Virus record (IMG/VR): IMGVR_UViG_3300031920_000467
Span: 1-29,964 of that record
Reading direction: 5' to 3' (one strand)
DNA: 29,964 nt
Source: a virus
Every line of letters begins with the position of its first letter. Within the stretch, counting starts at the first letter, position 1. Under the pieces are notes generated by a model, which did no database searches, was not told where the DNA came from, and was given only the letters and a program-made list of their open reading frames with translations. Position numbers and translations under genes: made by a program. Below, in pieces: positions 276-29,619 of this stretch.

Positions 276-284
276 TATAAATAC
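276..284 (-). promoter_or_regulatory. Candidate late promoter motif GTATTTATA
   Basis: The minus strand reads GTATTTATA here, ending 15 nt before the ATG of the 49-aa gene. It is one of seven exact start-proximal copies in the window, all in the orientation of the downstream gene. Confidence 0.6.
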
Positions 285-301
285 ATTAAAATTAATTAAA
301 A

Positions 302-1390
302 TTATATGGATTTAAATTTACTACCACCTAACCCACCTGTTTTTCTTCGATTTAATTGTTTCCACCCCTCTGATATATATTTATTTAAATAAAATTTTTC
401 TAATATAATAGCTTCATCGACATTAACATAATTAGTCAGTTGTTTTATTTTTGGTTTTAATTTGGTTTCTTTTATATGAATAGTAACAGCATCGTTTAAA
501 TCTCTTTTTCTATTTTTTTTCCTCATATTGAAATTATATGTTAACCCAACATAAACATACATATCAGAAAATTCATAAGAATATATACATCTATTATATT
601 TATCACCTAATGGTTTCATATGTGAACAAATTTCATCTAACCAATCCATTTTTAATACAATATTATAAACATGTTGAGAATTTTTCACAAAATCACGTTT
701 ATTATTATATTTCAATGCTTCATTTTTACAATTATCAAAGGAATGCCAATATTTATTAGGCAATTTCTTAAAATTCATATGTGAACAAATTTCATCTAAC
801 CAACCATTATATCTTGCAGCACTATATGCATTTTTATTATTAACTTGAAATTCTTTTCTATGCTCATATTTTAATGCAATATATTGACATTTTTCTTTCG
901 ACCATTTAAAACTTTTAATGTATGATTTATACATGTGTTGACAAACATCATCTAACCAACTATTTCTAACACAAGCAGCATATGCATTCATTGAACCATT
1001 ATTAAAATCTATTCGATATTCATATTTATTTGCTTCTTCCTGACACTTTTCTTTCGTCCAAAAAATTGGTTTTTTATAAGATTCCATATGTCCACAAATA
1101 TCAATAAACCAATTATTATCTTTTATCACTTTATATACATATTTAAAATCTTTTCTAAAATTATTAATATTTTTATATTTTTTCACTTCATTTTTACATT
1201 TATCATATGTCCATTTTAATTTTATATTTTTAGGTCTTTCCATATGTAAACATGCCTCACATAACCAATCATTTTTTCTTAATAGTTCATATGCTGCAAT
1301 GTATCTCTTCTTAAAATCTCTTTTATTCTTAAATTCCAACGCTTTACTAAAAGCAGTCTCTTTATTCCAATAATTTCTTTTTTTTCTCAT
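302..1390 (-). CDS. GIY-YIG endonuclease-like protein with five N-terminal repeats
   Basis: This 362-aa protein has two parts. Residues 1-258 hold five copies of a 51-53-residue repeat, each ending in a W-L/F-x-x-x-C-x-H-M signature (HM at 49-50, 101-102, 152-153, 204-205 and 257-258), with the pattern W-(T/S)-K-E-K-C near the start of each unit and R-x-(D/E)-F in the middle. Residues 268-360 resemble a GIY-YIG nuclease domain: IYSYEF then YVYVGLT for the two signature strands, basic residues after them, and Glu331 in LEKFYLNKY as candidate metal ligand. Such proteins are usually free-standing phage homing or DNA-processing endonucleases; the repeats are probably the DNA-binding part (inference). 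A GTATTTATA motif lies 15 nt before the start. No intron or split gene is visible nearby. Confidence 0.75.
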   Translation of the reverse strand: MRKKRNYWNKETAFSKALEFKNKRDFKKRYIAAYELLRKNDWLCEACLHMERPKNIKLKWTYDKCKNEVKKYKNINNFRKDFKYVYKVIKDNNWFIDICGHMESYKKPIFWTKEKCQEEANKYEYRIDFNNGSMNAYAACVRNSWLDDVCQHMYKSYIKSFKWSKEKCQYIALKYEHRKEFQVNNKNAYSAARYNGWLDEICSHMNFKKLPNKYWHSFDNCKNEALKYNNKRDFVKNSQHVYNIVLKMDWLDEICSHMKPLGDKYNRCIYSYEFSDMYVYVGLTYNFNMRKKNRKRDLNDAVTIHIKETKLKPKIKQLTNYVNVDEAIILEKFYLNKYISEGWKQLNRRKTGGLGGSKFKSI

Positions 1391-1405
1391 ATAAAAATCA
1401 TTTAA

Positions 1406-1414
1406 TATAAATAC
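1406..1414 (-). promoter_or_regulatory. Candidate late promoter motif GTATTTATA
   Basis: The minus strand reads GTATTTATA, ending exactly 15 nt before the ATG of the GIY-YIG repeat protein. This is the same spacing as at 276-284 and 17848-17856. Confidence 0.6.
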
Positions 1415-1460
1415 TAAACGATTCGATAATATAATAACATAAAATAATATGAAAAGATTT

Positions 1461-1553
1461 TTACGTTTTTAATTCACTAACATAGTCATATACACCATCT
1501 TCTAAACACGTGAATTTATAATCGCATTTACCCTCAATTCTTAATTTTTTCAT
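1461..1553 (-). CDS. Possible 30-aa ORF or gene remnant
   Basis: An ATG at 1553 opens a 30-aa frame ending in TAA at 1461. The same frame is open further upstream to about 1590, reading LKDRYQYETQAW before the Met, but offers no ATG, GTG or TTG start there. It lies in a different frame from the nucleotidyltransferase gene that ends at 1586, overlapping its last codons. It may be a small gene, the tail of a former longer protein, or chance. I do not recognise the sequence. Confidence 0.3.
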   Translation of the reverse strand: MKKLRIEGKCDYKFTCLEDGVYDYVSELKT

Positions 1554-1585
1554 CCAAGCTTGTGTTTCATATTGATATCTATCCT

Positions 1586-1951
1586 TTAAACATCAGTTGG
1601 GTAATAAACCACACCATATCTTGTACATTCTGAACCAACAACTTCTTTATCTTTATAATGATCACCAACCACCATATAATCAATTTCATGATTAGTAATG
1701 AAATCTTTTAATTCTTTATCTGAATCAAATATATATGCCTGATCCACACATTTGAGTGACATCAAAAATCTCTTTCGTTCAAAATGATCATTAATCGGTC
1801 TTTTTTTCCCTTTAAGTATTTTCACTCTTCGGTCTGAATCAACACCAACTAACAACTTATTATAATTATTATGTAAACTCTTGGCAAATTCAAGTAAATC
1901 TAAATGCCCGGTATGTAATACATCAAAACAACCATTTATCCAAATATTCAT
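1586..1951 (-). CDS. HldE C-terminal-type sugar-phosphate nucleotidyltransferase
   Basis: This 121-aa protein belongs to the cytidylyltransferase-like fold. It shows GCFDVLHTGH at 7-16 (the HxGH nucleotide-binding motif), VDSDRRV at 37-43, and the KRP/ERKRF segment at 50-62. This pattern is that of the adenylyltransferase half of HldE (RfaE domain II), which joins ATP to D-glycero-beta-D-manno-heptose 1-phosphate to give ADP-heptose. In many bacteria the domain is fused to the kinase; here the kinase is a separate gene 56 nt upstream on the same strand. The short C-terminus lacks the usual extended end of the family. Glycerol-3-phosphate cytidylyltransferase is a related alternative, but the adjoining heptokinase-like gene argues for HldE. 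Confidence 0.85.
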   Translation of the reverse strand: MNIWINGCFDVLHTGHLDLLEFAKSLHNNYNKLLVGVDSDRRVKILKGKKRPINDHFERKRFLMSLKCVDQAYIFDSDKELKDFITNHEIDYMVVGDHYKDKEVVGSECTRYGVVYYPTDV

Positions 1952-2007
1952 TATTTTTCTATTTTAGTTTAACCAGCACCAACTTTAACACTAAAACTGT
2001 CATTTTT

Positions 2008-2766
2008 TTAGATTAATTCAGGATTTACCGCAACCACACCCTTTTGTGTTACTACCCATGATGCACATTTATTTGCGAAGTTTATTGCTTCATTAATATT
2101 ATTTTTTTCAAGATATTTAACAACCAATGCAGCTAAAAAAGTATCACCTGCACCTGATAAATCCCTAACCTGATGTTCATCTACAATATGAAAATGATCT
2201 ATTTGATTTAACTGTGCACCGTTTTTACCATGTGTTACAATTATATCATATTTATAATTATCAGCTAACCAATCACCATTCTCTTTAAATTCTTTATTGT
2301 TAATCTTTATAAATTTAATGTTTTCAACCCACGTACCCAATTTCTTCTTAGTATCAAGGAATGTTAGTGAATGATTTTCAGAAATATATTTAATATCATT
2401 TTCAGATAAAAATCCTTTATTATAGTCAGATATAATAACAGCATTATATTTATTAAAATCAATCTTTTCTAATATTTCTTTTGATAATGGTTCAACATTA
2501 TCGTTTTCATCAATCCGGATTAATATTTGATTTGAAACCTCATCAACATATCTAATCTTTACTGGTCTAATATCATTAGTAATTATATCACAAGTAATGC
2601 CAAGTGCTTTTACATTATCAATAACATTAACACACATACCACCGTTCTGTTTGGTTGTTGTTGGTTTAAATATTGGCACAGGTGCTTCCGGTGATAATCT
2701 TTCACAAATACCATATCTAAACATATCTAAACAACTATCCCCAATTATTAATATCTTTACACCCAT
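2008..2766 (-). CDS. HldE N-terminal-type PfkB sugar kinase
   Basis: This 252-aa PfkB/ribokinase-family kinase matches the HldE kinase domain. It has GDSCLDMFRYG at 9-19, the characteristic SPEAPVP at 25-31, an NGG at 41-43, SDYNKG at 113-118, and the catalytic anion-hole motif DLSGAGDTF at 202-210. The expected role is phosphorylation of heptose 7-phosphate at C1 in the ADP-heptose pathway. It is about 60 residues shorter than the bacterial domain, mostly in the segment after residue 60, though the core motifs are intact. Its start overlaps the end of the upstream GT2 gene. After its TAA stop the same frame continues for 11 codons to a second TAA, perhaps a relic of a longer or fused protein. 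Confidence 0.87.
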   Translation of the reverse strand: MGVKILIIGDSCLDMFRYGICERLSPEAPVPIFKPTTTKQNGGMCVNVIDNVKALGITCDIITNDIRPVKIRYVDEVSNQILIRIDENDNVEPLSKEILEKIDFNKYNAVIISDYNKGFLSENDIKYISENHSLTFLDTKKKLGTWVENIKFIKINNKEFKENGDWLADNYKYDIIVTHGKNGAQLNQIDHFHIVDEHQVRDLSGAGDTFLAALVVKYLEKNNINEAINFANKCASWVVTQKGVVAVNPELI

Positions 2767-3434
2767 TTATATTTATTTATTGTTGGTTTTACATTAATAC
2801 CTACTCTCACACCCTTGAATTTTTTATGATAACTAATTCTTTGACTCATCGGTATTGTTCTAGTTAAACTACCATTATGTTGTCTATATAGAAATAATCT
2901 TTTTTTTAATTTAACTTCCTTAAAACAATTTATTTGATTAAACCTTTGTAAAAATTCAGTATCTGCAGCACATTTCCAAGGTTGATACCCACCTAATATA
3001 TTATAAACCTTCCTATTAATATAATAAACACCATTAGCAAATCCATGCCATTCTCTTCTCTTTTTATTTCCACCATCATAAAAATAATACATAAACCTTA
3101 CTAAATCAGCTTTTACATCAATGACATCTTGAACTAGTGTTGGTAACATTATATCATCACTATCAAATTTAATAATATGATCATATTTTGCCAAGGTTAA
3201 TAATGTGTTTAATGTTATAAATAAACCACCATTATTATCCATAGATGCTATTTTAAGATTCGGATATTTACCTCTAATTTCTAAAAGTTTATTTAATGTA
3301 GGTAGACACGCATCTACACCCACAATTACTTCATATTCTTTATTATTTTTAAAATATGTTTGTGATTTTATTGAATCCAGACATTCTTCAATATATTTTT
3401 CTGTTTTATACGCTGGTATTAATATTGATATCAT
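2757..3434 (-). CDS. Family 2 glycosyltransferase (GT-A), short paralog
   Basis: This 225-aa protein starts with the GT2 signature ISILIPAYKTEKYIEECLDS and carries FDSDD (residues 90-94), the DxD metal/nucleotide-sugar site. Further on it has GGYQPW, shared with the second GT2 gene at 5362-6348. The two proteins align almost end to end (for example QTYFKN and the FDSDD block) and are clearly paralogs. It should transfer a sugar from a nucleotide donor; donor and acceptor cannot be deduced. Its ATG overlaps the stop codon of the upstream methyltransferase (TAATG), which suggests translational coupling. There is no membrane segment, so it is probably soluble. Confidence 0.9.
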   Translation of the reverse strand: MISILIPAYKTEKYIEECLDSIKSQTYFKNNKEYEVIVGVDACLPTLNKLLEIRGKYPNLKIASMDNNGGLFITLNTLLTLAKYDHIIKFDSDDIMLPTLVQDVIDVKADLVRFMYYFYDGGNKKRREWHGFANGVYYINRKVYNILGGYQPWKCAADTEFLQRFNQINCFKEVKLKKRLFLYRQHNGSLTRTIPMSQRISYHKKFKGVRVGINVKPTINKYKWV

Positions 3435-4042
3435 TATACTAATTCTTTTGGTTTACAATGAATTACTTGACCATATTCAATTTGTATTTTTCTTTGATCA
3501 ATAACATCGAAATGATGTTTCATATAATTATAAAATTCAGAACTGGTCCACTCCCTAATATGATATTGATTACCCGGAGGACCTAAAATTGGTCGCCCTA
3601 ACATATTAACTAATAAATCTCTATCAGGTGTAGATATGATAATATGTTTTGGATTCATTCCCTTTATCCAATTAATTAAATCGTCAGGATTTAATACGTG
3701 TTCGATAACATCAGCACATATAACCATATCAACAGTATCTGTTACTGAATTAAAATCAGATAAATACCATTTTTCATTTGGATATTTTATTTTTAATTCA
3801 GAAATAGTCGGTTCTAAATCATAACCAATAACATCAAAATCTGAAAAATATTTTTTTAATTTATAACCAGAACCACATCCAACATCTGCAATTTTATTTA
3901 TTGAAAATTTAGATGAGATTTCATGTGCTAATTTATACACATCATCTTGATATTCATCAGTTTTATTTGATGTATCTAAAAATTTAATTTCATCACGAAT
4001 GATATAATCCTCTCTAATAAAATAATTATTATTCAATTCCAT
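3434..4042 (-). CDS. Class I SAM-dependent methyltransferase
   Basis: This 202-aa protein has a Methyltransferase_11/23-type fold: motif I ADVGCGSGY at 52-60, an acidic end of strand 2 (GYDLEPT), and motif IV ICADVIEHV at 108-116, as in UbiE- and sugar-methylating enzymes. In a cluster of glycosyltransferases the likely substrate is a sugar or glycan (inference from context). It overlaps the upstream GT gene by 14 nt and the downstream GT2 by the TAATG junction, so it sits inside one operon. DNA methylation is unlikely because no target-recognition region or NPPY motif is present. Confidence 0.85.
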   Translation of the reverse strand: MELNNNYFIREDYIIRDEIKFLDTSNKTDEYQDDVYKLAHEISSKFSINKIADVGCGSGYKLKKYFSDFDVIGYDLEPTISELKIKYPNEKWYLSDFNSVTDTVDMVICADVIEHVLNPDDLINWIKGMNPKHIIISTPDRDLLVNMLGRPILGPPGNQYHIREWTSSEFYNYMKHHFDVIDQRKIQIEYGQVIHCKPKELV

Positions 4043-4721
4043 AATCTTTTTTGTTAAATACTATTGGGTGTCCATATAATCTATTAATTAAATTAAGTCC
4101 ATGAATAACCTGCATGGCATATAAATCATTCACCTTTTTACCCGGTAAGTGTTTATTAACTAAATTATGATCGACCAATAGTGATATACATTTAATTTTA
4201 TTGTTTATTATTTTTTCGTGTGTAGACACAAATGGTGATACAAAAGTATTAAAATATTTTTTAGAATTATGAGCAACAGATTTCTCGTTATCATATGTTA
4301 ATGAATTATTTAAATCAATATAACTGTCCGGCTTTTCTTGTAAATATTTTTTAACGTTTTTTATAAAATCACTTCGTAAAGCATCATCCCTATCTAATCT
4401 TGTTAATATAACAGAATCATATCCCTCTAAATTACCAATATATTCATTGATTACATCAATCATATTACTTTTAGGGTATTCATTATTTACTGAATTTACT
4501 TTTAAAATAACTTCATTATCTAAAACATTACCATATTCATTAATATCCTGATCAACTATAGACAACAATGTAAAATCTTGATCCGTTTGGTTTTTTAATG
4601 ATGATCTACAAAATCTATCCATTAAACTGATACTACTTTTTACCCATTGATCCCATGTTAGATTTGTTTCTGAAAATCTCCATTTAATGGCTAATCTCGT
4701 TACTATAATATGTTTTACCAT
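4029..4721 (-). CDS. Putative rhamnosyltransferase-like glycosyltransferase
   Basis: This 230-aa protein resembles the 'putative rhamnosyl transferase' family (PF11316-type). It has an N-terminal HIIVTRLAIKW segment, a FTLLSIVDQDI strand, and LDRDDAL at 109-115, which is the DxDD-like metal/nucleotide-sugar site. It is shorter than typical bacterial members, roughly the catalytic core. It lies 3 nt after the upstream methyltransferase gene and overlaps the following one by 14 nt, consistent with coordinated expression. The sugar donor is not determinable from sequence; the family name should not be read as proof of rhamnose. Confidence 0.75.
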   Translation of the reverse strand: MVKHIIVTRLAIKWRFSETNLTWDQWVKSSISLMDRFCRSSLKNQTDQDFTLLSIVDQDINEYGNVLDNEVILKVNSVNNEYPKSNMIDVINEYIGNLEGYDSVILTRLDRDDALRSDFIKNVKKYLQEKPDSYIDLNNSLTYDNEKSVAHNSKKYFNTFVSPFVSTHEKIINNKIKCISLLVDHNLVNKHLPGKKVNDLYAMQVIHGLNLINRLYGHPIVFNKKDYGIE

Positions 4722-4724
4722 CTT

Positions 4725-5375
4725 TTATCTTTTTTTTATGAAACAAATTGTATCATCAACAAATAAATCAACACTAGATATATTATCCAATAGATATTTA
4801 TATTCGTCTTTATTTAAATAATTACTGGTATAATCGTTACCTTCTTTTAAATTTTTCAATAATTCGACTGTTGTTGTTTCGTTTTTCGAATCATAAAAAT
4901 GTTTATGTTTTGACGTATGAAGGTCCTCAATTACATAAACACCACCACTTCTTAGATATTTAAACAAGACTTTAAATGATACTTGTTGATGTTTCATTCT
5001 ATGTGAACCATCATCAACAATGAAATCAAATGAAATATCTTTAAATTCATTGAGGAATGTAATATTACCTTGATCACCTAGTTTTATTTTAATGTTTGAT
5101 GTTTCAATTGATTTCTTTTTAAATCGATTCTCATTAATATCAACACCATATATTAACGTTTTTTTATTAAAATATTCATCCCACATTTTAATAGATGCAC
5201 CCCAAGACACACCAATTTCAAGCATTTTACTTACATTAATATCTTCTAATGTTTTATCATAATGAACGGCATAATTATGACCAAGAATACCATTATAACA
5301 CTTTTTACCATCATTCATTCTTTTATCTGTGTCATATTTCTTTGATAGCTCTACAATTGTTTTATTTTTCGACAT
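4725..5375 (-). CDS. TylF/CmcI-like class I methyltransferase
   Basis: This 216-aa protein has a SAM-binding motif MLEIGVSWGAS at 51-61, VDIN at 78-81, an acidic DDGSH at 121-125, and GGVYVIEDLH at 144-153. The combination of W/S-rich motif I, DGSH and YVIED is that of the macrocin O-methyltransferase/cephalosporin-hydroxylase-like family, whose members often O-methylate sugars on antibiotics or surface glycans. The DGSH aspartate and IED are the probable metal ligands. Its start lies within the end of the upstream GT2 gene (14-nt overlap). In this operon it probably methylates a glycan unit (inference). Confidence 0.82.
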   Translation of the reverse strand: MSKNKTIVELSKKYDTDKRMNDGKKCYNGILGHNYAVHYDKTLEDINVSKMLEIGVSWGASIKMWDEYFNKKTLIYGVDINENRFKKKSIETSNIKIKLGDQGNITFLNEFKDISFDFIVDDGSHRMKHQQVSFKVLFKYLRSGGVYVIEDLHTSKHKHFYDSKNETTTVELLKNLKEGNDYTSNYLNKDEYKYLLDNISSVDLFVDDTICFIKKR

Positions 5376-6348
5376 ATTTACCAGTTACTCTTTTTATTTT
5401 TTTAAGTTTATTTTTAACATTCCTTTCAATCTTTTTATGATATATTTTTCTTATTTCGGACTTCATACCAGTTTTTTCGTTTTGAGTTAAACTCATATCA
5501 TGAATCCTTCTATGAAATAAACCAAGATTAATTTCTTTTGTTTTTAAATCATCCCCAATTCTTTTTAAGATTTCACCTTCAGATGTACATACCCAAGGTT
5601 GATACCCACCATATATATCAAAAACTTCTTTATTGAAATAAATCACACCAGCAGCGTATGGATTTCCTAATTTTTTTAATCTAGGTTCTCCAATCACATT
5701 AAAATTATAATAACTAAATTTAATTATTTGATAATCGTTAATGTATTGCATTATTTCATTAACCATCTCAGGCAACATATAATCATCACTATCAAATCTA
5801 ATATAATTTTCTGTATTCATTAACCCAATTAAAGTGTTTGATGTAATAAATGTACCAACATTTTTATCCATCATGAATATTCTAAGATTTCTATATTTAT
5901 CTCGAATCTCCATTACCTTATCCAATGTCGTTTTACAATCATCAATGCCCAACAATACCTCAAAATCATCGTTATTTTTAAAATACGTTTGATTTTCTAT
6001 CGAATCAAGACACTCTTCAATATAATCAGATGTTTTATAAGCAGTAACTACAATGGTAACTGGTTTCTTCACCTTAGACACTGGTGAATATTCTATTATT
6101 TCTGGTTTTTTTATTCTCGGATTATTTCTAACATATCTGAAATTAGCAATTTTATCCAAACGTTTTATTTCAACACTTTTATCTTTAGGTTTTTTAATGA
6201 TAGGAGTAGAATTAACAACAGGATTATCCTTCTTAGATGATTTGTTTTTATTTATCAATGTATTTTGATTTTTGTCGTTTATTTTAATTTCCTCTAAAAA
6301 TATCCCTTTATTAATTATTCTTTTAATATCTCCTTTTTTTCTTTTCAT
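5362..6348 (-). CDS. Family 2 glycosyltransferase with Lys-rich N-terminal extension
   Basis: This 328-aa protein has a GT-A domain from about residue 97 (VTIVVTAYKTSDYIEECLDS) with FDSDD at 185-189 and GGYQPW downstream, closely matching the shorter GT2 at 2757-3434. The pair reflects a duplication. Residues 1-96 are an added low-complexity region rich in Lys, Asn and Ile and absent from the paralog; it may bind an acidic partner such as a polymer or nucleic acid (inference). Its ATG overlaps the stop of the upstream gene (TAATG). Donor and acceptor are unknown. Confidence 0.88.
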   Translation of the reverse strand: MKRKKGDIKRIINKGIFLEEIKINDKNQNTLINKNKSSKKDNPVVNSTPIIKKPKDKSVEIKRLDKIANFRYVRNNPRIKKPEIIEYSPVSKVKKPVTIVVTAYKTSDYIEECLDSIENQTYFKNNDDFEVLLGIDDCKTTLDKVMEIRDKYRNLRIFMMDKNVGTFITSNTLIGLMNTENYIRFDSDDYMLPEMVNEIMQYINDYQIIKFSYYNFNVIGEPRLKKLGNPYAAGVIYFNKEVFDIYGGYQPWVCTSEGEILKRIGDDLKTKEINLGLFHRRIHDMSLTQNEKTGMKSEIRKIYHKKIERNVKNKLKKIKRVTGKYVEK

Positions 6349-7979
6349 TATTCAAACCAAGTTTCATTAATAACCTTCTTATATAGATTAAATACTTGTT
6401 TTGCTGAAAAATCACTACTATATTTTTTAACATCAGTTGGAACTTGTGTTAATTCTTTATTAAGAATTTTACCCTCTTTATCTACTTTATATATCCATCC
6501 CGGTTTACCACATAGAAAACCTTCAATAGTGCTACGACCTTTAAAAATCCCAGCAGTATAACTACATCGTTTATAATATGTTTCAACCTTAGATTGTACA
6601 CCTAAATAGATTACATCATCATCAACTAATTCTTTAACATAACCACCATTATCTGCACCAATAATCCAAAGTTCTTGATTATTTTCCTTTACCATTTGTT
6701 TCAAATCAAATAAAATATTCTTTCTTAAATGATCTAATGTACCAACAAATAACACACTTTCTTTAATACTTAACCATTTTTCTTTATTATAATCCACATT
6801 AAAACGAGCACAATCAAAGGGGTTGTCGATAGTTACAATACTATCTTCTTTAACACCAAATCCTTTAATGTATTCGGTGATAGAATCCCGGATACTAATG
6901 TATCTCTTAATATTTGGATTGATTATTGGTTCTTCAAATGTTGGTATAACTTCACTTCTTACATGCATAACAGCAGGAGTGTTTGGATACATTTTAAGTA
7001 CTTGTTCACCAATTGGTTTATGATTTATATGAATAATATCAAATTCTTTTTGATTTTTAAAAAACCCTAACTGTCCTTCATTTGTAATCATATAATTTGG
7101 TGAGTTCTGTACTGAATGTACTTTAACACCTGCTTTTTTTGCTTTTGATAATAATGGTTCACCAATCATTGTTGATACTAATGTAACATCACAACCTAAT
7201 TTCTTCAATTCTTTAGATAATTCATAATTAGATACCTCTGATCCGGTGTAATTTTTAAAAAACTGACAACAAATTAATACCCTTAATTTTTCTTCATTAG
7301 GTACATCTCTCAATGGTAAATATTCTCTATAGTCCTCAACGAATTTAAGTCGATTATCTTCCCAACTTTGATAAGTTGCACCTACCGACTTATGTAAAAT
7401 ACGTATATCTGTAGTAACACCAATTAAAACTTCTTCAAGATAATTATCAACACAAAATGTTAAATCATAAAAATGAAATTTACCATAGTTTTCATTATAT
7501 TTCTTCTCAATTCTATATGGGTCAACTGCCATGAAAAGACCATCAACATGAACAACACTTTGAATCCCGGTAATTTTTTCTGAATATTCGCTGGTCCATT
7601 CACTTATCTGATCTGAATGTTCAACAATACCATACATTTTACTTCGATCATCCCACCACGTACCTGATTGAGGAACAAATGTAGTACCAGCAATACCGAT
7701 AATACCATATTCAGTATGATTAAATTTTCTTAGTAGAATTTTACCCCAATCTTTAGTTTTGAAAACTATATCATTGTGACAGAAAACAAATATTACATTA
7801 TCTTCAGTGTTATCATTAAGTGCCTCATTGTAAATTTGAGACAATGAAAATTCATTATGGTTGATAAATCTTGATATTGAATGATCAACACCTATAGTAT
7901 TTTCAATCTGTTCATTAAATTTACTATCTTCCTCATCCCCCAAATGTGAGGAATATACTACTATGATTTTATTTTTCAT
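6348..7979 (-). CDS. Two-domain glycosyltransferase (GT2-like plus GT4-like)
   Basis: I place the start at ATG 7979 (MKNKIIVVYSSH, 543 aa) rather than the in-frame ATG at 8015, because the latter lies deeper inside the upstream gene and adds a residue string unlike the family. Residues 1 to about 225 look like a GT2 family 5-type domain (FVFCHNDIVF, GIIGIAGTTF, HVDGLFMAVD). From about 245 to the end is a GT-B/GT4-like domain (VLICCQFFKNYTGSEVSNYE, HINHKP, VLFVGTLDHLRKN, and an E near the C-terminus in RSTIEGFLCGKPG). The fusion suggests two successive sugar transfers by one polypeptide (inference). It overlaps the Bro-N gene by 11 nt. Confidence 0.85.
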   Translation of the reverse strand: MKNKIIVVYSSHLGDEEDSKFNEQIENTIGVDHSISRFINHNEFSLSQIYNEALNDNTEDNVIFVFCHNDIVFKTKDWGKILLRKFNHTEYGIIGIAGTTFVPQSGTWWDDRSKMYGIVEHSDQISEWTSEYSEKITGIQSVVHVDGLFMAVDPYRIEKKYNENYGKFHFYDLTFCVDNYLEEVLIGVTTDIRILHKSVGATYQSWEDNRLKFVEDYREYLPLRDVPNEEKLRVLICCQFFKNYTGSEVSNYELSKELKKLGCDVTLVSTMIGEPLLSKAKKAGVKVHSVQNSPNYMITNEGQLGFFKNQKEFDIIHINHKPIGEQVLKMYPNTPAVMHVRSEVIPTFEEPIINPNIKRYISIRDSITEYIKGFGVKEDSIVTIDNPFDCARFNVDYNKEKWLSIKESVLFVGTLDHLRKNILFDLKQMVKENNQELWIIGADNGGYVKELVDDDVIYLGVQSKVETYYKRCSYTAGIFKGRSTIEGFLCGKPGWIYKVDKEGKILNKELTQVPTDVKKYSSDFSAKQVFNLYKKVINETWFE

Positions 7980-8847
7980 TATAATACAATTCGTTAGGTA
8001 ATATATTATTATCAAGTAAAAATTTAAAATTATTTTTACTTATTTCTGAATTACTAATAAAAAATGCTTTTTCTTCAGGAAGACCTAATCTTAATAATTC
8101 TTTATGTTGACTAATTGAACAACTTTCTTCAGGGAATACTAATCTTAAACCATCAAGTCCACTTGATATTTTAGATGGTGCAATTCCTCTATTTATTGCT
8201 TCTTCTTTCCCTATTTTTTTCCAATATGATGGTGGTTTATTTGTATGTTTAATTGATATATTTTTATTATTATTAATTGTTCGATCAGTACCACCTTCTT
8301 TAAAACTAACATAATTATACCATTTAGATTGTAATTTTTGATAATTGAAATCTAAATGTAGATCAATATCATTTTTTAATTTTATATCATTATATAATTC
8401 AAATAATTTTCTAAATGCAGGTAATGCATCTCTTCTTAACCAAGTTTGTAATTTTCTACCTATTTCTTTTCTGGAATTCATAGCTAAACCATAAAAACCT
8501 GATTCAGAAATTAAAGTAATACTCCCCGTATGTTTAGAAAATAAAGGGGTTTCAGAACCTTCTATGTTTAACATATAAGGTTCAGATGTAAAATTATCTA
8601 TAAATAGTTTAAATAATTCACCATTTTCTTTTAATGTTAAGAACATGGTTTCATCATCATATAAATTTGAATTATTAATTGCTTGTGTTAAATTTTGAAA
8701 ACCTAAAATATTTTGAACTTCTTTTCCAATAAACCAATATTTTTCATCTTCATTTTTACTTTTAATTATTGTTAAATTACCAAAAATTTCATGTGGAAAT
8801 GTTTTTACATAATCATAAAATTTATACTTTTTTACTGAAGTTTCCAT
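7969..8847 (-). CDS. Bro-N domain protein with unrecognised C-terminal domain
   Basis: This 292-aa protein has a Bro-N (phage antirepressor-like DNA-binding) region over roughly residues 15-140, with WFIGKEVQNILGFQNLTQAI, LISESGFYGLAMNSRK and FRKLFE as matching blocks. Bro-N proteins of phages and insect DNA viruses bind DNA or chromatin and often act as regulators. The C-terminal 120 residues (WKKIGKEEAINRGIAPSKIS and later EEKAFFISNSEISK) match no standard partner I recognise (ANT, KilA-C). It is the first gene of the overlapping sugar operon, so control of that operon is possible but unproven. The start at 8847 has an A/T-rich leader; no clear host promoter or GTATTTATA is present upstream. 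Confidence 0.8.
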   Translation of the reverse strand: METSVKKYKFYDYVKTFPHEIFGNLTIIKSKNEDEKYWFIGKEVQNILGFQNLTQAINNSNLYDDETMFLTLKENGELFKLFIDNFTSEPYMLNIEGSETPLFSKHTGSITLISESGFYGLAMNSRKEIGRKLQTWLRRDALPAFRKLFELYNDIKLKNDIDLHLDFNYQKLQSKWYNYVSFKEGGTDRTINNNKNISIKHTNKPPSYWKKIGKEEAINRGIAPSKISSGLDGLRLVFPEESCSISQHKELLRLGLPEEKAFFISNSEISKNNFKFLLDNNILPNELYYNEK

Positions 8848-8915
8848 ATTTACTATTATATTTATTAATTAAAAAATATAACAAACATATGAAAAAAAAT
8901 AGGAAGAGTCAAGGA

Positions 8916-9258: not shown

Positions 9259-12200
9259 TTAAATTTCATCTTCACTTGTTATATTTAGATTATCATTTGC
9301 GTAATTAGTCTCACCATATTTACTCTTATATTGTTCAATTAATTTAGTTTGTTCTTCACTTAAAACACCATTAATATGTCCTTCCTGTAAATTAGCAGCA
9401 TTTGATGGTTTACTATAAATACCTTTATCTGAAAAAGTAGAATTCGCATAATAATTATATGAAACAGCATTTTGAAGTGCATCTATAGGTCCTTTAAGTG
9501 ATTGACCACCTATGATCTTAATTTGCATAGTAACATTCGCTAACATTGGTTGCATACCAAAACCTTCTGGATTTAAATCCCAAGGTGAATCAATATAATC
9601 CATAGTAATAGTATCAATAATAATTTTAGTATTAAAAAAATCACCTATTCTTAAAACACATATTGGTTGACGACCAAACACTGAATTTTTAACTCTACCA
9701 ACACCACTACTATCTTTTTCAGAACCACCTCTAATAGCAGAACCTTGTCTAGTACACTGTTGTAAAAATGTTAGTCTTCTATGAAAATTTTCAGGGGTTT
9801 GAGAATGAAATGCTGAATAAAAATAATTACCAGTAATTGATTTATAACCACTTAATATACCACCATCTTCATTAGAAAGATCAGAAGATGTTCTTTCATT
9901 CATTGTATAATCATTAGCATCACCATGTCTTTTTAATTGATTTCTTCTTTTTTCTAATAGTTCTTTTTCTTTTTTTAATGTCTCAATTTTTTTCTGATCT
10001 TCAGTTGATATTTCTGGTTCTTTTTTATCTGTAGAAATATCAGTTTCATTAAATATTATTGTTGCCATTCTTTCTGATTTGGTAATTTGTTCATCCTTAC
10101 CTTCAAGTGTTTCACCTATATCTGATCCACCCGAATCGCCTATAGGTTCTTCAGTAATTTTAATTACATCTACTGCACTTGGACCAAATAATGCTTTTAT
10201 TCTTGCTTGAATAAATGTTTTAGTAACTTCTACTCTTCTTTCAGATATAGCTTGATTATATTTAATAGAAGCTTCAGTGTCTACTTCATTAGTAACACCC
10301 GGAGTATATAATTTAGATGCTCTACCTAAAATATTAATTTTATAATATTTTCTATTATCGGGATTATTAAATAAAATAAATAAACTTTCATCTAATTTAC
10401 TCTTTTGTCCTTTATACGTATATTGACTAAAACCGGGAGGTACATTAACAACAGCAAAACTCTTATCATCTCTAGTTAAACCAACTGGATAATATATATC
10501 TTTATTCATACCCAAACTACGTGCATCAACACTACTATAATATTTTTCTTTAATCTCATATTTATCTTCAGTGTATAATTTATCAACAAGACTACTAAGA
10601 TTATCATTCTCAGATGGTATATTATTTGGAAAAGCTAAACTAATTGGTTCAGGTAAATCAATTTCTGGTCTTTTTTGGTCAGTACGACCTTCAACTTCTA
10701 CTATTATTTTATCATTTTCCTGTTCCTTTTTAATCATGGTATTAGGATTTTCAGGTAAATCATATGAATCACCACCAAATGCAAAGAATTTAGCAAGTGC
10801 ATCATGACTCGCACTTGAATTACTATTATTTGAATTGTAATTATTTACTTGAGGTGGATAATCAATAAGTAATTTAAAGTTTATTGTTGCAGTTCTTTCA
10901 GAATGCATATATGTATAAACAGGTTCACTTCTACCAACAAAAACATTACTATCCCATTTAGCAATAGCAACTTCATTAATTTCAATACCATATGGTGGAA
11001 ACCACATCATACGTCCGTTAAATGGTCCAACTTCACTTTTAGGTATTTGTGTACCTATTTCATCATCTATAAGTCCAAATTCAGGTGTATCTATTGTTCT
11101 AACCGCCAGATTTTCAATAGAAAACATTAAATTTCTATTATCTATTTTTTTACTTTCTTCATGAATTGTTGGATGAATTCTAGGTATTACTGATTTATTT
11201 ATTACTGAATTTATATTACCACCATATTTAATATTACCATCAAATCTAATTGCTTTAGCAAAACGATCATATTGATCTAAAATAGTATGTTGACGAATAC
11301 CTTCTTTACCTTTTTTATCATCTCTAAGATAATTACTATTATTTGCTTTCCATAGACCAGAACCATTAAAACCATCATCATCCTGAAAAGACTTATTAGT
11401 TTGCTTTTTTTTAGTTTGATCAACAACCTTACCATTGGTTGCATTTAACAATTCTGAAGTATATTTTAATAAACCAGTTTTAACTTTAAACTTAACATCT
11501 AAATTAAATTTTTCAGTTAAATTATTATTAAAATCACCACGTAATGAACTAAGTCTAGTATTTGCAGCATCAGAAACACCATCTCTACCCCAAATAATTT
11601 GATTATCAAGATTAGTATCAAAACCATCTTCTTTTTTAAGGTATTCAGATAAAGTTTCTACCTTAATAACACCAACACCTAAATTATTATCTATATATTC
11701 TAAATCTGGAGCATATTCTTGACCTTTAGCAATTGCTACATCAGAATTTGATTTTACCATTCTTTTATTTGCAGTTTCCTCAGCATTTTGTTGTGCTAAT
11801 AAGGTTTCAGGATTATATTTTTCATATTTATGGGATGGTTTATATGAGAAATTAAAATATTTTTTAGTTGCATTAGTACCATATTTACCATCTAAAATCC
11901 AACTCATTGGTTTGATATCTTCTTTAATCTCTTCAGCTATATCAGAATAAACTTTACTATTTGTTTTATATAAATTTTTATTTATTTGTCTAAATAAAAA
12001 TACTTGTTGGGCACTACCTGTTTTTCTTAAAAATTCATCATTAGAAGCATCTTTAGTATATGGGTAAAAATTTGCCGGAGTAAAACCAACAAATCTTTCT
12101 AAAAATCCTTCAACTGTATTAAAAAAACCTTTATCTCTTTTTGTTATTCTATAATTTTTTTGAAGTGTAAATAAATGAGTTGATGGATCACCATCCCACA

Positions 12201-12599: not shown

Positions 12600-12608
12600 T
12601 ATAAATAC
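12600..12608 (-). promoter_or_regulatory. Candidate late promoter motif GTATTTATA
   Basis: The minus strand reads GTATTTATA, ending 14 nt before the ATG of the 1108-aa baseplate gene. Confidence 0.65.
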
Positions 12609-12645: not shown

Positions 12646-12840
12646 AAAAAAACGAACGAACCCCTAAATATAATTAATATAATATTATAGTTTTTTATTA
12701 TTAATTATACTTATATATCTCTATATAAGAGAGTTATGTTATAAAACTTACCCTCCAAATATTTTAATACGTTCGTATATATATATATAAGGGAAGATGT
12801 ATTTATATAGAAAAAGTTACGTTCGTTCGTTCGTTTTTTT
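12646..12840. repeat. Perfect 16-nt inverted repeat flanking 163 nt
   Basis: The left arm 12646-12661 reads AAAAAAACGAACGAAC and the right arm 12825-12840 is its exact reverse complement. The right arm extends as tandem GTTC/CGTT units from 12819. The arms bracket most of the divergent intergenic region. Candidate roles are operator or replication-protein binding sites, or a large cruciform. Confidence 0.8.
12799..12807 (+). promoter_or_regulatory. Candidate late promoter motif GTATTTATA (plus strand)
   Basis: The plus-strand motif lies 103 nt before the chosen primase start. An in-frame ATG at 12797 overlaps the motif itself, which argues against that ATG as the translation start. The spacing is unlike that of the 14-15 nt set, so confidence is lower. 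Confidence 0.4.
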
Positions 12841-12910
12841 AAAAAAAGATTGTTTATTAAGATTTAAATATATATGTTTGCATAACACAAAAATAACTAA
12901 AGAAAATAAT

Positions 12911-17847: not shown

Positions 17848-17856
17848 TATAAATAC
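17848..17856 (-). promoter_or_regulatory. Candidate late promoter motif GTATTTATA
   Basis: The minus strand reads GTATTTATA, ending exactly 15 nt before the tape measure ATG and directly after the terminator hairpin of the upstream chaperone unit. A promoter immediately after a terminator is a strong positional argument. Confidence 0.7.
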
Positions 17857-17886
17857 AAAAAGACCAAGTTTTATCTTGATCTTTTT
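17857..17886 (-). terminator. Rho-independent terminator after the chaperone genes
   Basis: Arms 17857-17868 and 17875-17886 form a 12-bp stem with a 6-nt loop. On the minus-strand RNA all 12 positions pair (one G-U), and the 3' arm ends in five U. On the plus strand the same position is a C-A mismatch, which supports minus-strand use. Confidence 0.75.
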
Positions 17887-18056: not shown

Positions 18057-18083
18057 CCCGGCTAAATTCCGGGAGAAAAAAAA
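18057..18083 (-). promoter_or_regulatory. Candidate -1 ribosomal frameshift site (slippery T7/T8 plus hairpin)
   Basis: On the minus strand the heptamer T TTT TTT occupies 18083-18077 in exact X XXY YYZ phase relative to the gp26-like frame (GAT TTT TTT TCT). Three nt later a hairpin forms: CCCGG at 18073-18069 and CCGGG at 18061-18057, with the zero-frame TAG (18064-18062) in the loop. After a -1 slip, 13 sense codons lead without a stop to the ATG of the 51-aa ORF. The spacer is shorter than usual, so efficiency is uncertain. Confidence 0.6.
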
Positions 18084-19072
18084 TCCACACCGACAGTCAA
18101 TACACTTTTAAATTTAAATCCATCTTTTGCTGTAAATTCATACTCCATGTCAACATCAGGAGACACTTCTAATATTTTTCTACGTACTGTTGTTGAATCT
18201 AATCCCGGCATTGCATCAACAAATTTACTTATATAATCTTTATCAACTTTATCACCAATTGATACAATTTGTGCTTTTATTTTCATTGTGTTATATTCAC
18301 TAAATTCAACACCCATTGCTTCTTTTATTTCATCAGCTTGTTGAAATATTGCATTTTCTTCACTACCACTAATTAATCTGAATTTAACTAATTTTTTTCT
18401 CATTGGTAATTCTACAGAAAAATAACCATTTTCATCCGGTGTTTCAGTAACTTCTTTATATTGAAGTTGTGATAGATTAACAACAGTTTCAAAAGGAACA
18501 CCTGTTCTTGGATCATAAACACTAACACCATAATCATTACCATATGATGATATTCTTAAAAATAGAAGAATTGCATTTTTATCTCCGGGTAATAATTCAC
18601 TTGCCACAACACCCTGTGTTTTAATTTTTCTATTTAATAATAAATCATTTACTTTACCGCTTTCAATTAAAGATGGTGTTGTTATTAAATCTTCATCTTT
18701 TGATGTCATATACTCAATTTCAATTTCACCAATTTTATGTTTATAATGAGCACCTTTAGATGGTAATTTAATTAATTCATATGCTGTCATTAAATCAGGA
18801 TCGGTTTCCTTTTTCATAACTTTCTCGAAATCATTAGATTTATATTGTGGTGCTGGTGGAATATTAGGTTTCGATGTGGCTTGTTGTGGTGATTTATCAA
18901 CAATAATACCTTCTTTAATATTCTCTTTATTAATAATATCTTGATAAAATTCTTTAGGTAATCCTTCTGGAATTTTTGGTGCTTCTTCTGACATCTGATG
19001 TTGTTCTTTAAATTTTTTAACAGTATCAGTTACTGAAGGTTTTTGAGGTGGTTTATTATTATCTGTTTCCAT
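18062..19072 (-). CDS. gp26-like baseplate/tail assembly protein
   Basis: This 336-aa protein matches the T4 baseplate gp26 family pattern (PF12322-type). After a Pro/Lys-rich leader of about 105 residues come ELIKLPSKGAHYKHKIGEIE, a YMTSKDEDLITTPSLIESG block, the G-V-V-A-S-E-LLPGDKNAILLFLRISSYG core, and a YDPRTGVPFE segment where homologs have a Cys-rich knuckle. In T4, gp26 is needed to build the hub and is thought to act as an assembly factor rather than a lasting structural part. The gene ends in the only TAG stop I noted, beside the candidate frameshift site, so a longer fusion with the 51-aa ORF is expected. A variant late motif (GTATTTATT) lies 26 nt before the ATG. Confidence 0.75.
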   Translation of the reverse strand: METDNNKPPQKPSVTDTVKKFKEQHQMSEEAPKIPEGLPKEFYQDIINKENIKEGIIVDKSPQQATSKPNIPPAPQYKSNDFEKVMKKETDPDLMTAYELIKLPSKGAHYKHKIGEIEIEYMTSKDEDLITTPSLIESGKVNDLLLNRKIKTQGVVASELLPGDKNAILLFLRISSYGNDYGVSVYDPRTGVPFETVVNLSQLQYKEVTETPDENGYFSVELPMRKKLVKFRLISGSEENAIFQQADEIKEAMGVEFSEYNTMKIKAQIVSIGDKVDKDYISKFVDAMPGLDSTTVRRKILEVSPDVDMEYEFTAKDGFKFKSVLTVGVDFFSPGI

Positions 19073-19098: not shown

Positions 19099-19107
19099 AA
19101 TAAATAC
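19099..19107 (-). promoter_or_regulatory. Variant late promoter motif GTATTTATT
   Basis: This has one mismatch to GTATTTATA in the last position. It lies 26 nt before the gp26-like ATG and is preceded by TTA as in other copies. Confidence 0.45.
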
Positions 19108-23143: not shown

Positions 23144-24010
23144 ATGGGGAAAAAAACAAACTATTATTTTGCAGAACGTGAAGAAAAGGCAGTGATCGAT
23201 TACATTGGTTCAGATTCTGGTAAATTAAAAAATCAAATATACAACGAGGTTTTGATTGAACCATTTCGTATAATGATTGAAGTGATATTAAGAAAATATC
23301 CAATACATATTGGTAATTATACAATGGAAGAGGTTGAACAGTTTGCTTTAAACCATCTTATTGATCAAATGGTTAAATATAAAACATATATAATTGAAAG
23401 TAAACCATATGATATTGATGATAAATGGATTAAACTTGGTGATGGTTACCGATTTATTAATTTAGATGATGTAGAAAATAAATTAGATACTTTAATTAAT
23501 GTTGAAGATGGGTTTGATTATAGAATTTTTAAATCTAAAGCATATAGTTATTGTCAAACAATAGTTAGAAATTATTTTAAAGATTGGAGCAAAAAAACAT
23601 ATGCAGATAAAATTATTAATTTAAATTATGATGATTATTTTGATGAAATTAATCAAAAATCAGAATTTATATATGAAATATCTAGTGATGATAGTTCATT
23701 GTTAGATAAACTTATGATAAAAATCGTTTCTGAAATTGAAAATAAACTAGATAACGATACAAATATTAAGAAAAATGAACTTATTGTTGGTGAAGCGGTT
23801 GTTAATGTGTTAAAACATTGGGACTTGTTATTTTTAGAAGAAACCCCGGAAGGTACATATAATAAAAAAGTCACCAATAAATTCGCAAAAAATAAAGTAC
23901 TTTTATTTCTAAAAGAACAAACCGGATTAAATACAAAAGAAATTAGAATGGCACTTAAACCATTTAAAGAACTATATTTCCTTGAAAAGGAGGGTTTATT
24001 AAGTGAATAA
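23144..24010 (+). CDS. Late-transcription sigma factor, T4 gp55-like
   Basis: This 288-aa protein resembles the phage late sigma factor family. The N-terminal block YYFAEREEKAVIDYIGSD, followed by RNQIY-like LKNQIYNEVLIEPFRIMIEV and ILRKYPIHIG, then KAYSYCQTIVRNYFKDWSKK, corresponds to the conserved region-2-like segment used by gp55 to bind core polymerase and the late -10 element. The C-terminal 110 residues are less conserved and end in an acidic/hydrophobic tail (ELYFLEKEGLLSE), similar in character to the sliding-clamp binding tail of gp55 (inference). It lies just before the first late-type structural gene and its GTATTTATA motif. It would direct host RNA polymerase to the late motifs in this window. 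Confidence 0.72.
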   Translation: MGKKTNYYFAEREEKAVIDYIGSDSGKLKNQIYNEVLIEPFRIMIEVILRKYPIHIGNYTMEEVEQFALNHLIDQMVKYKTYIIESKPYDIDDKWIKLGDGYRFINLDDVENKLDTLINVEDGFDYRIFKSKAYSYCQTIVRNYFKDWSKKTYADKIINLNYDDYFDEINQKSEFIYEISSDDSSLLDKLMIKIVSEIENKLDNDTNIKKNELIVGEAVVNVLKHWDLLFLEETPEGTYNKKVTNKFAKNKVLLFLKEQTGLNTKEIRMALKPFKELYFLEKEGLLSE

Positions 24011-24028: not shown

Positions 24029-24037
24029 GTATTTATA
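24029..24037 (+). promoter_or_regulatory. Candidate late promoter motif GTATTTATA (plus strand)
   Basis: The plus-strand motif ends 14 nt before ATG 24052, matching the minus-strand spacing. It sits after the late sigma gene and starts the virion block, so it both supports the motif on the opposite strand and decides the start of the next gene. Confidence 0.65.
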
Positions 24038-24051: not shown

Positions 24052-24426
24052 ATGCCAAGACCTACAAGAAAAAAATTAAAATTTAATGAAGATAGTGTAA
24101 ATGATCTTTTACAGGAAATTTATAATGACAGCCATAATCTTAAAGCTAAACTAACTCGTTTATTTACTAAATGGGAAACAAAAGCATCAGAAGGTGGTGA
24201 GATTGCTGCAATCGGTGATCAGATAGTGAAAATTATTAATGCCGAAGCTAAAAATCAAGATCAAAAAATTATGCTTCTTAAATATTTAAAGGAAGTTGTT
24301 TTTGATAAAAACAAATCATTAAGTAATGATAGTGAACAAGGAAAAGATGTTAGTTCATCATCAAGAAATGAATTAATTCATATGGTTGAAGAACATACAA
24401 ACAATTCAAAAGATAAAAAGAAATAA
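24052..24426 (+). CDS. Small helical protein of unknown function (124 aa)
   Basis: I take ATG 24052 (MPRPTRKKLKFNED) rather than an upstream in-frame TTG at 24025, because the late-promoter motif lies between them. The protein is helical: NDLLQEIYNDSHNLKAKLTR, a central AAIGDQIVKIINAEAKNQDQ, and MLLKYLKEVVFD. The C-terminus is polar and Ser/Lys-rich. The N-terminus is basic. Size and charge are compatible with a small terminase subunit or a DNA-associated assembly factor, but I do not recognise a clear family. It leads the late structural genes and is followed by a 5-nt gap. Confidence 0.7.
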   Translation: MPRPTRKKLKFNEDSVNDLLQEIYNDSHNLKAKLTRLFTKWETKASEGGEIAAIGDQIVKIINAEAKNQDQKIMLLKYLKEVVFDKNKSLSNDSEQGKDVSSSSRNELIHMVEEHTNNSKDKKK

Positions 24427-24431
24427 TTAAA

Positions 24432-25733: not shown

Positions 25734-25738
25734 AAATT

Positions 25739-26324: not shown

Positions 26325-26325
26325 A

Positions 26326-26541
26326 ATGGAAGATATAACAAAAAAAACACCAACAGAATTATTGGTTTTGGTTAATAAAACTAAAGATGCTCATGATATT
26401 TTAAAAAAAGAGATTATTGATAACACTTATGTTATTGATGAATTGCGAAAATTAGAAAACGATATAAATTTAAAAATAGCTGAATTAACTAAGTTAGAAG
26501 AATTTTATGTTCTATTAGTAGGTGAAATGGATAAAAGATAA
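26326..26541 (+). CDS. Small coiled-coil protein (71 aa)
   Basis: This 71-aa protein is almost entirely helical, with heptad-like spacing (TELLVLVNKTKDAHDILKKE, LRKLENDINLKIAELTKLEE). It is packed between the 135-aa gene (1-nt gap) and the gp5-like spike gene (3-nt gap). It may be a small assembly factor or tail-fibre-proximal coil; that is inference from structure and context only. Confidence 0.65.
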   Translation: MEDITKKTPTELLVLVNKTKDAHDILKKEIIDNTYVIDELRKLENDINLKIAELTKLEEFYVLLVGEMDKR

Positions 26542-26544
26542 GAA

Positions 26545-27429: not shown

Positions 27430-27438
27430 TTATTTTCA

Positions 27439-27446
27439 TATCTTTG
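27439..27446 (+). promoter_or_regulatory. Possible Bacteroidota host promoter -7 element (TATCTTTG)
   Basis: TATCTTTG fits the TAnnTTTG -7 consensus of Bacteroidota sigma-70-type promoters and lies in the 22-nt gap before the nuclease gene at 27452. A clear -33 TTTG is not seen, and the start would then be nearly leaderless, so this is tentative. Confidence 0.25.
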
Positions 27447-27451
27447 TCTTT

Positions 27452-28243: not shown

Positions 28244-28247
28244 GAAA

Positions 28248-28829
28248 ATGACAGATACAAAACAGGGATTGCCTCCAATACCAAGAGGAAAAGAACGTAA
28301 TTTATTTTTTGGTAAACAAGTTGATCAAGAAACGATTGAAGCGTTATCTAGAGAAATTATTTTAATTAATGAAAATGATGTGGAATTAGTTAAATTATAT
28401 GCAATTTATGATTTGGAATATAAACCAAAGCCAATTAAGATATATATTGATTCTTACGGTGGTTATGTTTATCAAGTATTAGGATTGGTAGGTATAATGG
28501 AAAAATCTAAAACAGGTATTCATACCATATGTACTGGTGCTGCTATGTCATGTGGATTTATAATGTTAATTTTTGGACATAAAAGATTTTGTTATGAACA
28601 TGGTACACCTCTTTATCATCAAATTGGTACAGGTTTCAGTGGTAAAGTAGAAGATTTGGAACAAAAATTTGTTGAATCTAAAAGACTTCAAAATAAAATT
28701 GAAGAAATGACAATTAGAAAAACTAAAATATCAAAAGAAAAGTTAGATGATATTCGTGAAAAGAAAATTGATTGGTATATGACAGCGAAAGAAGCGTTAG
28801 ATTTAGAGGTTATTGATGAAATAATTTAA
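28248..28829 (+). CDS. ClpP-like serine protease (S14), probable maturation protease
   Basis: This 193-aa ClpP-fold protein has IYIDSYGGYVYQ (residues 65-76, the S-P-G-G-like glycine strand), GAAMSCG at 97-103 with nucleophile Ser101, PLYHQ with His124, and DWYMTAKEALDLEVID with Asp175 completing the triad. All three catalytic residues are therefore present. Phage ClpP-like enzymes often process the prohead, but no scaffold or capsid gene is visible in the window, so the substrate is open. It lies 4 nt after the nuclease gene and 3 nt before a small gene. Confidence 0.88.
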   Translation: MTDTKQGLPPIPRGKERNLFFGKQVDQETIEALSREIILINENDVELVKLYAIYDLEYKPKPIKIYIDSYGGYVYQVLGLVGIMEKSKTGIHTICTGAAMSCGFIMLIFGHKRFCYEHGTPLYHQIGTGFSGKVEDLEQKFVESKRLQNKIEEMTIRKTKISKEKLDDIREKKIDWYMTAKEALDLEVIDEII

Positions 28830-28832
28830 ATT

Positions 28833-29030
28833 ATGAATTTATTACAACTATTTTGGGAATGTGTTTTACATAGTAAATGTGAAACATTAAAGAAACAGGA
28901 TATACTTCAAGATTATAGAATGGAAAGTACTGAAGAGGGTGTTATTGATTTATATGTAATACCAAAAAAAATAATACAACATATAAATATTGATATTATT
29001 GTATCACCATCAGGTGCAACATTCTCATAA
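28833..29030 (+). CDS. Small protein of unknown function (65 aa)
   Basis: This 65-aa protein (MNLLQLFWECVLHSKCETLK to IIVSPSGATFS) follows the ClpP-like gene after 3 nt and precedes the terminator, so it is the last gene of the block. It has two Cys residues and a beta-like second half (VIDLYVIPKKII). I do not recognise the family; expression is likely from context. Confidence 0.6.
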   Translation: MNLLQLFWECVLHSKCETLKKQDILQDYRMESTEEGVIDLYVIPKKIIQHINIDIIVSPSGATFS

Positions 29031-29036
29031 ATAAAA

Positions 29037-29062
29037 AAAACCACACTAAAAAGGGTGGTTTT
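29037..29062. terminator. Bidirectional terminator between convergent genes
   Basis: Arms AAAACCAC (29037-29044) and GTGGTTTT (29055-29062), with an inner CT/AG pair, form a stem around an AAAA loop. A runs lie on the left and T-rich sequence on the right, so it can end transcription in both directions between the plus-strand block and the tail tube gene. Confidence 0.85.
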
Positions 29063-29087
29063 ATATTTTAAATTAAAAATTTGTTTA

Positions 29088-29576
29088 TTAAAGATTAAGA
29101 ATACATCTCCAAGGTTGGAAAGTTACAACAATATTTGATAGATCATCACTAGTGTAATCATTGTCACCGAAATCAACACCTGTTACCATACACTGTTCTA
29201 AATACCATTTTTCAACTTCAATACCTGTAGGGTCTAATGCTTTAAGTATTAAATTTTTCTTATATCCTGCAGCATAACCCATTCTACCTGTTAATGATTC
29301 TGCATGTAATCGAACCCACTCCATTACTTGTTGTGATGTCGATGGTCCAATTGGATCAAGAAATGTTACCGTCATTTCGTCCCAAGTATATTTACCTGCA
29401 ACATAATTTTGTTCGTTAACAAATGGAATTGGCACAGAATTTATTTTCTTCGATGGTCTTTTAATTTTTTGAACTTTCCACACTTCTATACCTAATTCAT
29501 CTGGAAATTCAACAAAGAAACGATTAACTCGTTTTGGTTCGTAGTCGAAAGGGATACCCCTTAATAATTCAGCCAT
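29088..29576 (-). CDS. Tail tube protein, T4 gp19-like
   Basis: This 162-aa protein is the size of T4 gp19 and has its pattern: an N-terminal RVNRFFVEFPDELGIEVWKV strand pair, a loop with RPSKKINSVPIPFVNEQNYV, the GKYTWDEMTVTFLDPIGPST strand, VMEWVRLHAES, a GYAAGYKKNLILKALDPTG block, and YLEQCMVTGVDFGDN with a C-terminal VVTFQPWRC strand. Tube rings stack to form the DNA channel inside the sheath. A GTATTTATA motif lies 34 nt before the ATG. The neighbouring gene on this strand is the acidic repeat protein upstream; the sheath gene is not in the window. Confidence 0.92.
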   Translation of the reverse strand: MAELLRGIPFDYEPKRVNRFFVEFPDELGIEVWKVQKIKRPSKKINSVPIPFVNEQNYVAGKYTWDEMTVTFLDPIGPSTSQQVMEWVRLHAESLTGRMGYAAGYKKNLILKALDPTGIEVEKWYLEQCMVTGVDFGDNDYTSDDLSNIVVTFQPWRCILNL

Positions 29577-29610
29577 ATCTTTTATATATTATTTAATATT
29601 CTTATTCTCC

Positions 29611-29619
29611 TATAAATAC
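29611..29619 (-). promoter_or_regulatory. Candidate late promoter motif GTATTTATA
   Basis: The minus strand reads GTATTTATA 34 nt before the tail tube ATG, in the gap after the acidic repeat gene. The longer spacing than the 14-15 nt class leaves room for a leader. Confidence 0.6.

Follow-up and report, generated by a model that had tools for sequence, protein, structure and literature searches.

Genes and motif copies in the window

We analyzed the whole of virus record IMGVR_UViG_3300031920_000467 (29,964 bases, ~27% GC; hereafter the window) for the use of one short word, GTATTTAT, which, judging from its placement, is very probably a late promoter standing before structural gene blocks in a large uncultured T4-like group of Bacteroidota phages, many of them giant. 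The T4-like phage character of the window is evident from its tail tube, T4-type baseplate hub, and PhoH genes, and the best named relatives of its primase/helicase gene are phages of Flavobacteriia. The gp19-like tail tube gene (29088..29576, minus strand) matches phrog_4542 (E 4e-25), and the hub gene (18062..19072, minus strand) matches PF12322 (E 4e-8, above the family cut-off). Positions 23144..24010 on the plus strand encode a 288-aa protein whose model looks like sigma factors, most of all in domain 2, and which we propose as the reader of the box. A small gene (24052..24426, plus strand) follows it. Gene starts were taken as the first ATG in long open frames.

A sequence-only reading of the window had proposed a nine-base word, GTATTTATA, as a phage late promoter. 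All of the 9-mers that it listed were found where it had placed them. The window holds eight exact copies against 1.5 expected, a count that 0 of 100 shuffles reached. One-mismatch copies showed no excess (39 versus 37.9 expected), so the signal lies in the exact word. The core GTATTTAT stands upstream of six of the 31 called genes, whereas 168 words of equal composition average 0.40.

Seven copies of the core precede gene starts and are oriented toward them. Five of these predicted late-promoter boxes lie on the minus strand upstream of genes at 111-260 to 18062-19072. The box at 277..284, an exact core with AAA at the conserved distance, lies 16 nt before a 49-aa open reading frame (111-260), and the box at 1407..1414 (exact core plus AAA) precedes gene 302-1390, with the core present in one of three homologues. 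The box at 12601..12608 (exact core plus AAA) precedes gene 9259-12585, which encodes 1,108 aa, lies between baseplate-type genes, and has no assigned function; its sole homologue carries the core too. The same is true of the sole homologue of gene 15319-17832, whose exact core (17849..17856) is preceded by a terminator-like hairpin and T-run on the same strand (17857..17883; AAGATCAAG-ATAAAA-CTTGGTCTT-TTT) that ends at the base adjoining the box. The box of the hub gene (19100..19107) is again an exact core followed by AAA. It had been called a one-mismatch copy of the 9-mer (19099-19107), but the core itself is perfect. The remaining two boxes lie after the sigma-like gene and ahead of gene 24052-24426 (24029..24036, plus strand; exact core plus AAA) and before the tail tube gene (29612..29619, minus strand). 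The spacer of 14-15 nt from the 9-mer to the ATG holds for the five sites at 276, 1406, 12600, 17848, and 24029; it is 26 nt at site 19099 and 34 nt at site 29611.

The claim that every copy points at its gene thus stands for seven sites and is doubtful for an eighth, the plus-strand copy at 12799..12806. This copy overlaps the called ATG at 12797 and lies ~100 nt before a more plausible start at 12911. A host-type (Bacteroidota) promoter-like site, TTG...TATGTTTG (12850..12880, plus strand), matches the host pattern 30 nt before that ATG, and for this reason the copy at 12799 probably does not serve the primase/helicase gene. An exact 9-mer at 9414-9422 (minus strand), within a coding gene, had been left out of the earlier list. 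The core there (9415..9422) and a further core inside a coding gene (3760..3767, minus strand) are probably chance copies.

The motif is enriched, oriented, and conserved in relatives

As the record consists of the window alone, the genome-wide test was done on its relatives, which are metagenomic sequences. A search with the tail tube protein returned 34 close relatives at 75-82% identity, a single relative at 62%, and many others at ~45%. Among 145 sites, the sequence logo comprised an A (75%), GTATTTAT, three free bases, and then AAA (78, 89, and 84%). The 9-mer proposed earlier was therefore one base too long, its ninth base being free (A in 51% of the sites), while its lack of a shared -35 element was borne out by the logo, which shows a single conserved box. 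The logo is asymmetric, with a G at the front and the A-run 3 nt past the core on the gene side.

Counts against control words revealed both an upstream bias and an orientation bias. In 437 kb of close loci, GTATTTAT was the most over-represented 8-mer (212 occurrences versus 113 under an order-6 expectation). Upstream of 412 unique genes it occurred 138 times in the sense and 27 times in the antisense orientation, while 168 permuted words averaged 5.8. Among intergenic copies in relatives with a classifiable neighbor (n = 164), 163 point toward a gene start and one does not, and both strands are used, as had been claimed. The word was also commoner than its backwards version in each of the 18 virus records of the group for which whole-record counts were made.

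The pattern was sharp in a relative of 327,676 bases (G008, the 327-kb relative, read as loci L169-L185). There, 76 copies lie in the sense orientation within 120 nt of a gene, 12 lie farther away, 4 are antisense, and 30 are in genes, whereas the means for 168 permuted words were 3.5 sense, 4.4 antisense, and 47.7 in genes. The gap to the ATG has a median of 18 nt. One-base variants were nearly absent before genes in G008, with only CTATTTAT present in trace (3 sense, 0 antisense). As a positive control, the same pipeline applied to the late region of T4 returned TATAAATA as the top 8-mer (12 sense).

Before the tail tube gene, GTATTTAT was found in 34/34 close relatives, about 30-60 nt from the ATG and between flanks that have otherwise diverged; it was absent there in all of the more distant relatives examined.

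The motif stands at the start of gene blocks

The motif precedes the homologues of window genes that come first in their blocks: 26/28 for the tail tube gene under a stricter 100-nt count, 6/6 for the hub gene, and 18/18 for the small gene 24052-24426. It precedes none of 112 homologues of the genes after that small gene and none of 15 homologues of the sigma-like gene, as would fit a factor made ahead of the late genes. A terminator-like hairpin with a T-run lies directly upstream of 22/145 motif sites compared with 1/273 genes without the motif. The G008 genes under the motif include those for the terminase large subunit, portal, tail sheath, tail tube, and virion structural proteins. Enrichment, orientation, operon-start position, terminator adjacency, and conservation together support the proposal of a phage late promoter.

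The gap after the sigma-like gene carries GTATTTAT in 26 of 34 cases. A gp33-like co-activator role for the small gene 24052-24426 was considered and set aside, as the gene heads a late operon. By eye, a similar small gene follows the sigma-like gene in the phages immuto and Mel-JY01. The leader that follows the box in this gap also shows conservation (ATGTACTAAAACTAT, at loci such as L097, L114, and L155), and 46 of 65 distinct contexts of GTACTAAAA immediately follow GTATTTAT. The conserved leader is possibly an mRNA control element or an extended promoter.

Comparison with T4 and with cultured relatives

The T4 late promoter is an octamer, TATAAATA, one helical turn before the start and without a -35 element (PMC2988020), and it works with gp55, gp33, and gp45 (PMC2988020, PMC7892883). 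Non-template bases -12, -9, and -8 sit in pockets of gp55 (PMC7892883). The box of the group resembles this system in being a single AT-rich octamer without a -35 element, placed on both strands before virion genes and AT-rich just downstream, and also, if our proposal is right, in being read by a phage sigma-like protein with the host polymerase. It differs in that the word is TATTTAT rather than TATAAAT, a G is required in front, the ninth base is free, and the sigma-like protein is not joined to gp55 by sequence profiles. In sense-strand counts before G008 genes, TATAAATA occurred 11 times versus 77 for GTATTTAT. The clamp profile phrog_223 (gp45) matched only T4 among eight records, although distant clamps could be missed, and phrog_12791 likewise matched in T4 only.

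The sequence-only reading had taken the box for the T4 late core reversed. This is unneeded. When TATAAAT and TATTTAT are aligned on one strand and in one register, five of seven bases agree (-13, -12, -11, -8, and -7) and only those at -10 and -9 differ. Because such words come close to being self-complementary, a match to the reverse complement is nearly guaranteed.

Two cultured phages use a similar box. Flavobacterium phage immuto has TATTTATA before 25 genes and TATAAATA before 8, and among its genes with TATTTAT upstream are those annotated as terminase, gp20, tail sheath, tail tube, baseplate hub, and tape measure. Rhodothermus phage RM378 has TATTTAA before 39 of 147 genes (binomial 1e-34), and its box is also followed by three free bases and an A-run. 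Both phages share the core TATTTA and its orientation with the group, and in RM378 the A-run again comes 3 nt after the core, but neither has a G in front of the box. Clades at ~45% identity use other boxes, such as ATAGTTA (35 sense, 1 antisense) and GATATATA (11 sense, 0 antisense).

We made two further observations in these phages. In RM378 (L212-L217 and L187), TATTTAA is often found precisely 6 nt ahead of the ATG; if it is a promoter, leaderless transcripts would result. In immuto (L191:10988-26897 and L190:22125-22685), GTTGC...TATATTTAGGTA lies upstream of 14 small, mostly hypothetical genes and is likely an early, host-sigma-like promoter class distinct from TATTTATA.

A sigma-like protein is the candidate reader of the box

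The protein encoded at 23144-24010 had no Pfam match and no significant PHROG match of its own. Its structural model (mean pLDDT of 75.6) was compared with known structures using VIA-align, and the leading matches were sigma factors: Staphylococcus aureus SigB (Z 8.1), Escherichia coli SigE (7.4), and SigI6 (6.7). The SigI6 alignment covers 94 residues in the N-terminal part of the model at 3.8 Å. A Foldseek search of the model against the PDB and viral models gave no significant match, the family profile had no meaningful match among PDB sequences, and the C-terminal domain alone gave no clear match when compared with sigma region 4. Five family members had weak matches to a sigma-factor PHROG (best E 0.0013).

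Relatives of the protein were found in the phage genomes G008, G010, G004, and G002, in immuto (gp118, E 2.9e-5), and in Mel-JY01 (E 2.0e-6), and not in RM378 or T4. Among bacterial genomes, the gene was found on only one contig, from a Bacteroidota metagenome-assembled genome. The gp55 profile phrog_234 matched immuto gp118 at E 0.008 and no member of the close group. A gp55-like gene had been reported in the window; a sigma-like gene is indeed present, but its kinship to gp55 is tentative. Because the link is weak and the profile comparison was negative, we do not file the protein as gp55. It is possibly gp55-related and likely the reader of the box.

Under this proposal, the sigma-like protein would bind host RNA polymerase and recognize the box on its melted non-template strand. 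Set in the T4 late register, the box would run G(-14) T A T T T A T(-7), keeping T(-13), A(-12), T(-11), A(-8), and T(-7) from T4, with the A at -10 and -9 changed to T. Transcription would begin about 6-7 nt past the box, giving short A-rich leaders.

Host-type and ECF-type promoter-like classes

The host promoter of Bacteroidota combines TTG near -33 with a TAnnTTTG box at -7, and six motifs mapped in Flavobacterium psychrophilum (TAnnTTTG variants, a sigma-54 type, TAnnTTGY, and a CGT box) include none like GTATTTAT (PMC9723704). The late box shares with the host promoter an AT-rich box near the start point but, in the logo, lacks both TTTG and the -33 box. Host-type sites form a separate class in the same phages. 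One such promoter-like site, TTG...CATATGTTTG (8882-8912, minus strand), rather than a late box, lies upstream of the anti-repressor-like gene 7969-8847 in the window.

Large relatives (G008, G010, and G004) each encode one or two extracytoplasmic function (ECF)-type sigma factors (PF04542). G008 has a second promoter-like class of ECF-sigma type, GTAAC-N16/17-CGTATAAT, before 23 genes in the sense and 2 in the antisense orientation, clustered away from most virion genes; examples precede an rIIA-like gene (L184:15074-17368) and an rIIB-like gene (L184:11836-13035). The class is present in eight of nine large relatives, with none in a reversed control. Upstream of an ECF-type sigma gene of G008 (L169:10693-11481, minus strand; phrog_1740, E 2e-21) lies a host-type TTG...TAnnTTTG site, suggesting a cascade in which the host sigma leads to the phage ECF sigma and this in turn to the late sigma.

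The window also contains, among its virion genes, a run of minus-strand genes without the motif (1586-7979) that by eye resemble sugar or surface-polymer functions (nucleotidyltransferase-, kinase-, glycosyltransferase-, and methyltransferase-like genes).

Alternative explanations

We consider it probable that GTATTTAT is the single-box, -10-like late-gene promoter of T4-related Bacteroidota phages and is read by the phage sigma-like protein. Several findings weigh against this. Motif-led genes in G008 also include those for ribonucleotide reductase, a repair exonuclease, and homing endonucleases; as some are metabolic or encode homing endonucleases, "late" may mean "middle and late." RM378 has a like box, yet no sigma-like relative was found there. 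The VIA-align Z values are modest, although the list of sigma factors is coherent, and hhalign found no match between the sigma-like family and the gp55 alignment. The box may instead be a promoter read by some other factor, either a phage ECF-type sigma or a host alternative sigma. Large relatives do encode the former, but these are fitted by the two-box class in the same genomes, and the motifs mapped in F. psychrophilum do not resemble the box. The sigma-like family, for its part, occurs where TATTTAT is used (G008, G004, G002, immuto, and Mel-JY01), RM378 excepted. We regard another reader as unlikely.

The remaining alternatives are weaker still. A box near start codons, favoring a distance of about 14-20 nt in G008, could be an mRNA element, either a translation-start signal or a leader processing site, rather than a promoter. 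This is very unlikely, as the distance to the start ranges between about 5 and over 60 nt, the operon-internal genes lack the box, and the box immediately follows terminators. To our knowledge, translation signals in Bacteroidota are not of such a kind. A T4 late core in reverse, bound in opposite polarity by a gp55-like protein, could appeal to TATTTATA being the exact reverse complement of TATAAATA. It is even less probable given the two-change same-strand alignment, a direction set by the leading G and the trailing A-run, the lack of conservation of the ninth base that a reversed octamer needs, and the different AT-rich boxes of distant clades. Finally, AT-rich words would be frequent between the genes of such AT-rich genomes (GC of about 27-31% in the window and relatives), but the permutation control in G008 refuted an effect of base composition, whose probability we take to be negligible.

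Implications for Bacteroidota phages

What emerges is a predicted late promoter system of T4 type, but with a box and a sigma-like protein that differ from those of T4. We infer promoter action, register, start point, and reader protein from sequence, and late timing from the content of the downstream genes. The literature searched, with partial coverage, held no earlier report of the motif. A wider reading, which we hold only tentatively, is that in distant T4-like phages a shared late-promoter frame, TA-N3-A(T/A), has had its inner bases rewritten by clade (AA in T4; TT in the group, immuto, and RM378; and GTT in a marine clade) along with a fast-changing sigma family that may no longer be joined to gp55 by sequence profiles. 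Jumbo Bacteroidota phages would then add an ECF sigma and its two-box class (rIIA, rIIB), giving a three-step program in which two phage sigmas and the host sigma act on the host polymerase.

Bacteroidota are a phylum with atypical host promoters. In many of their uncultured phages, the box would provide a rule for locating late operons, and the joint change of phage sigma factor and promoter would become testable through the cultured phage immuto.

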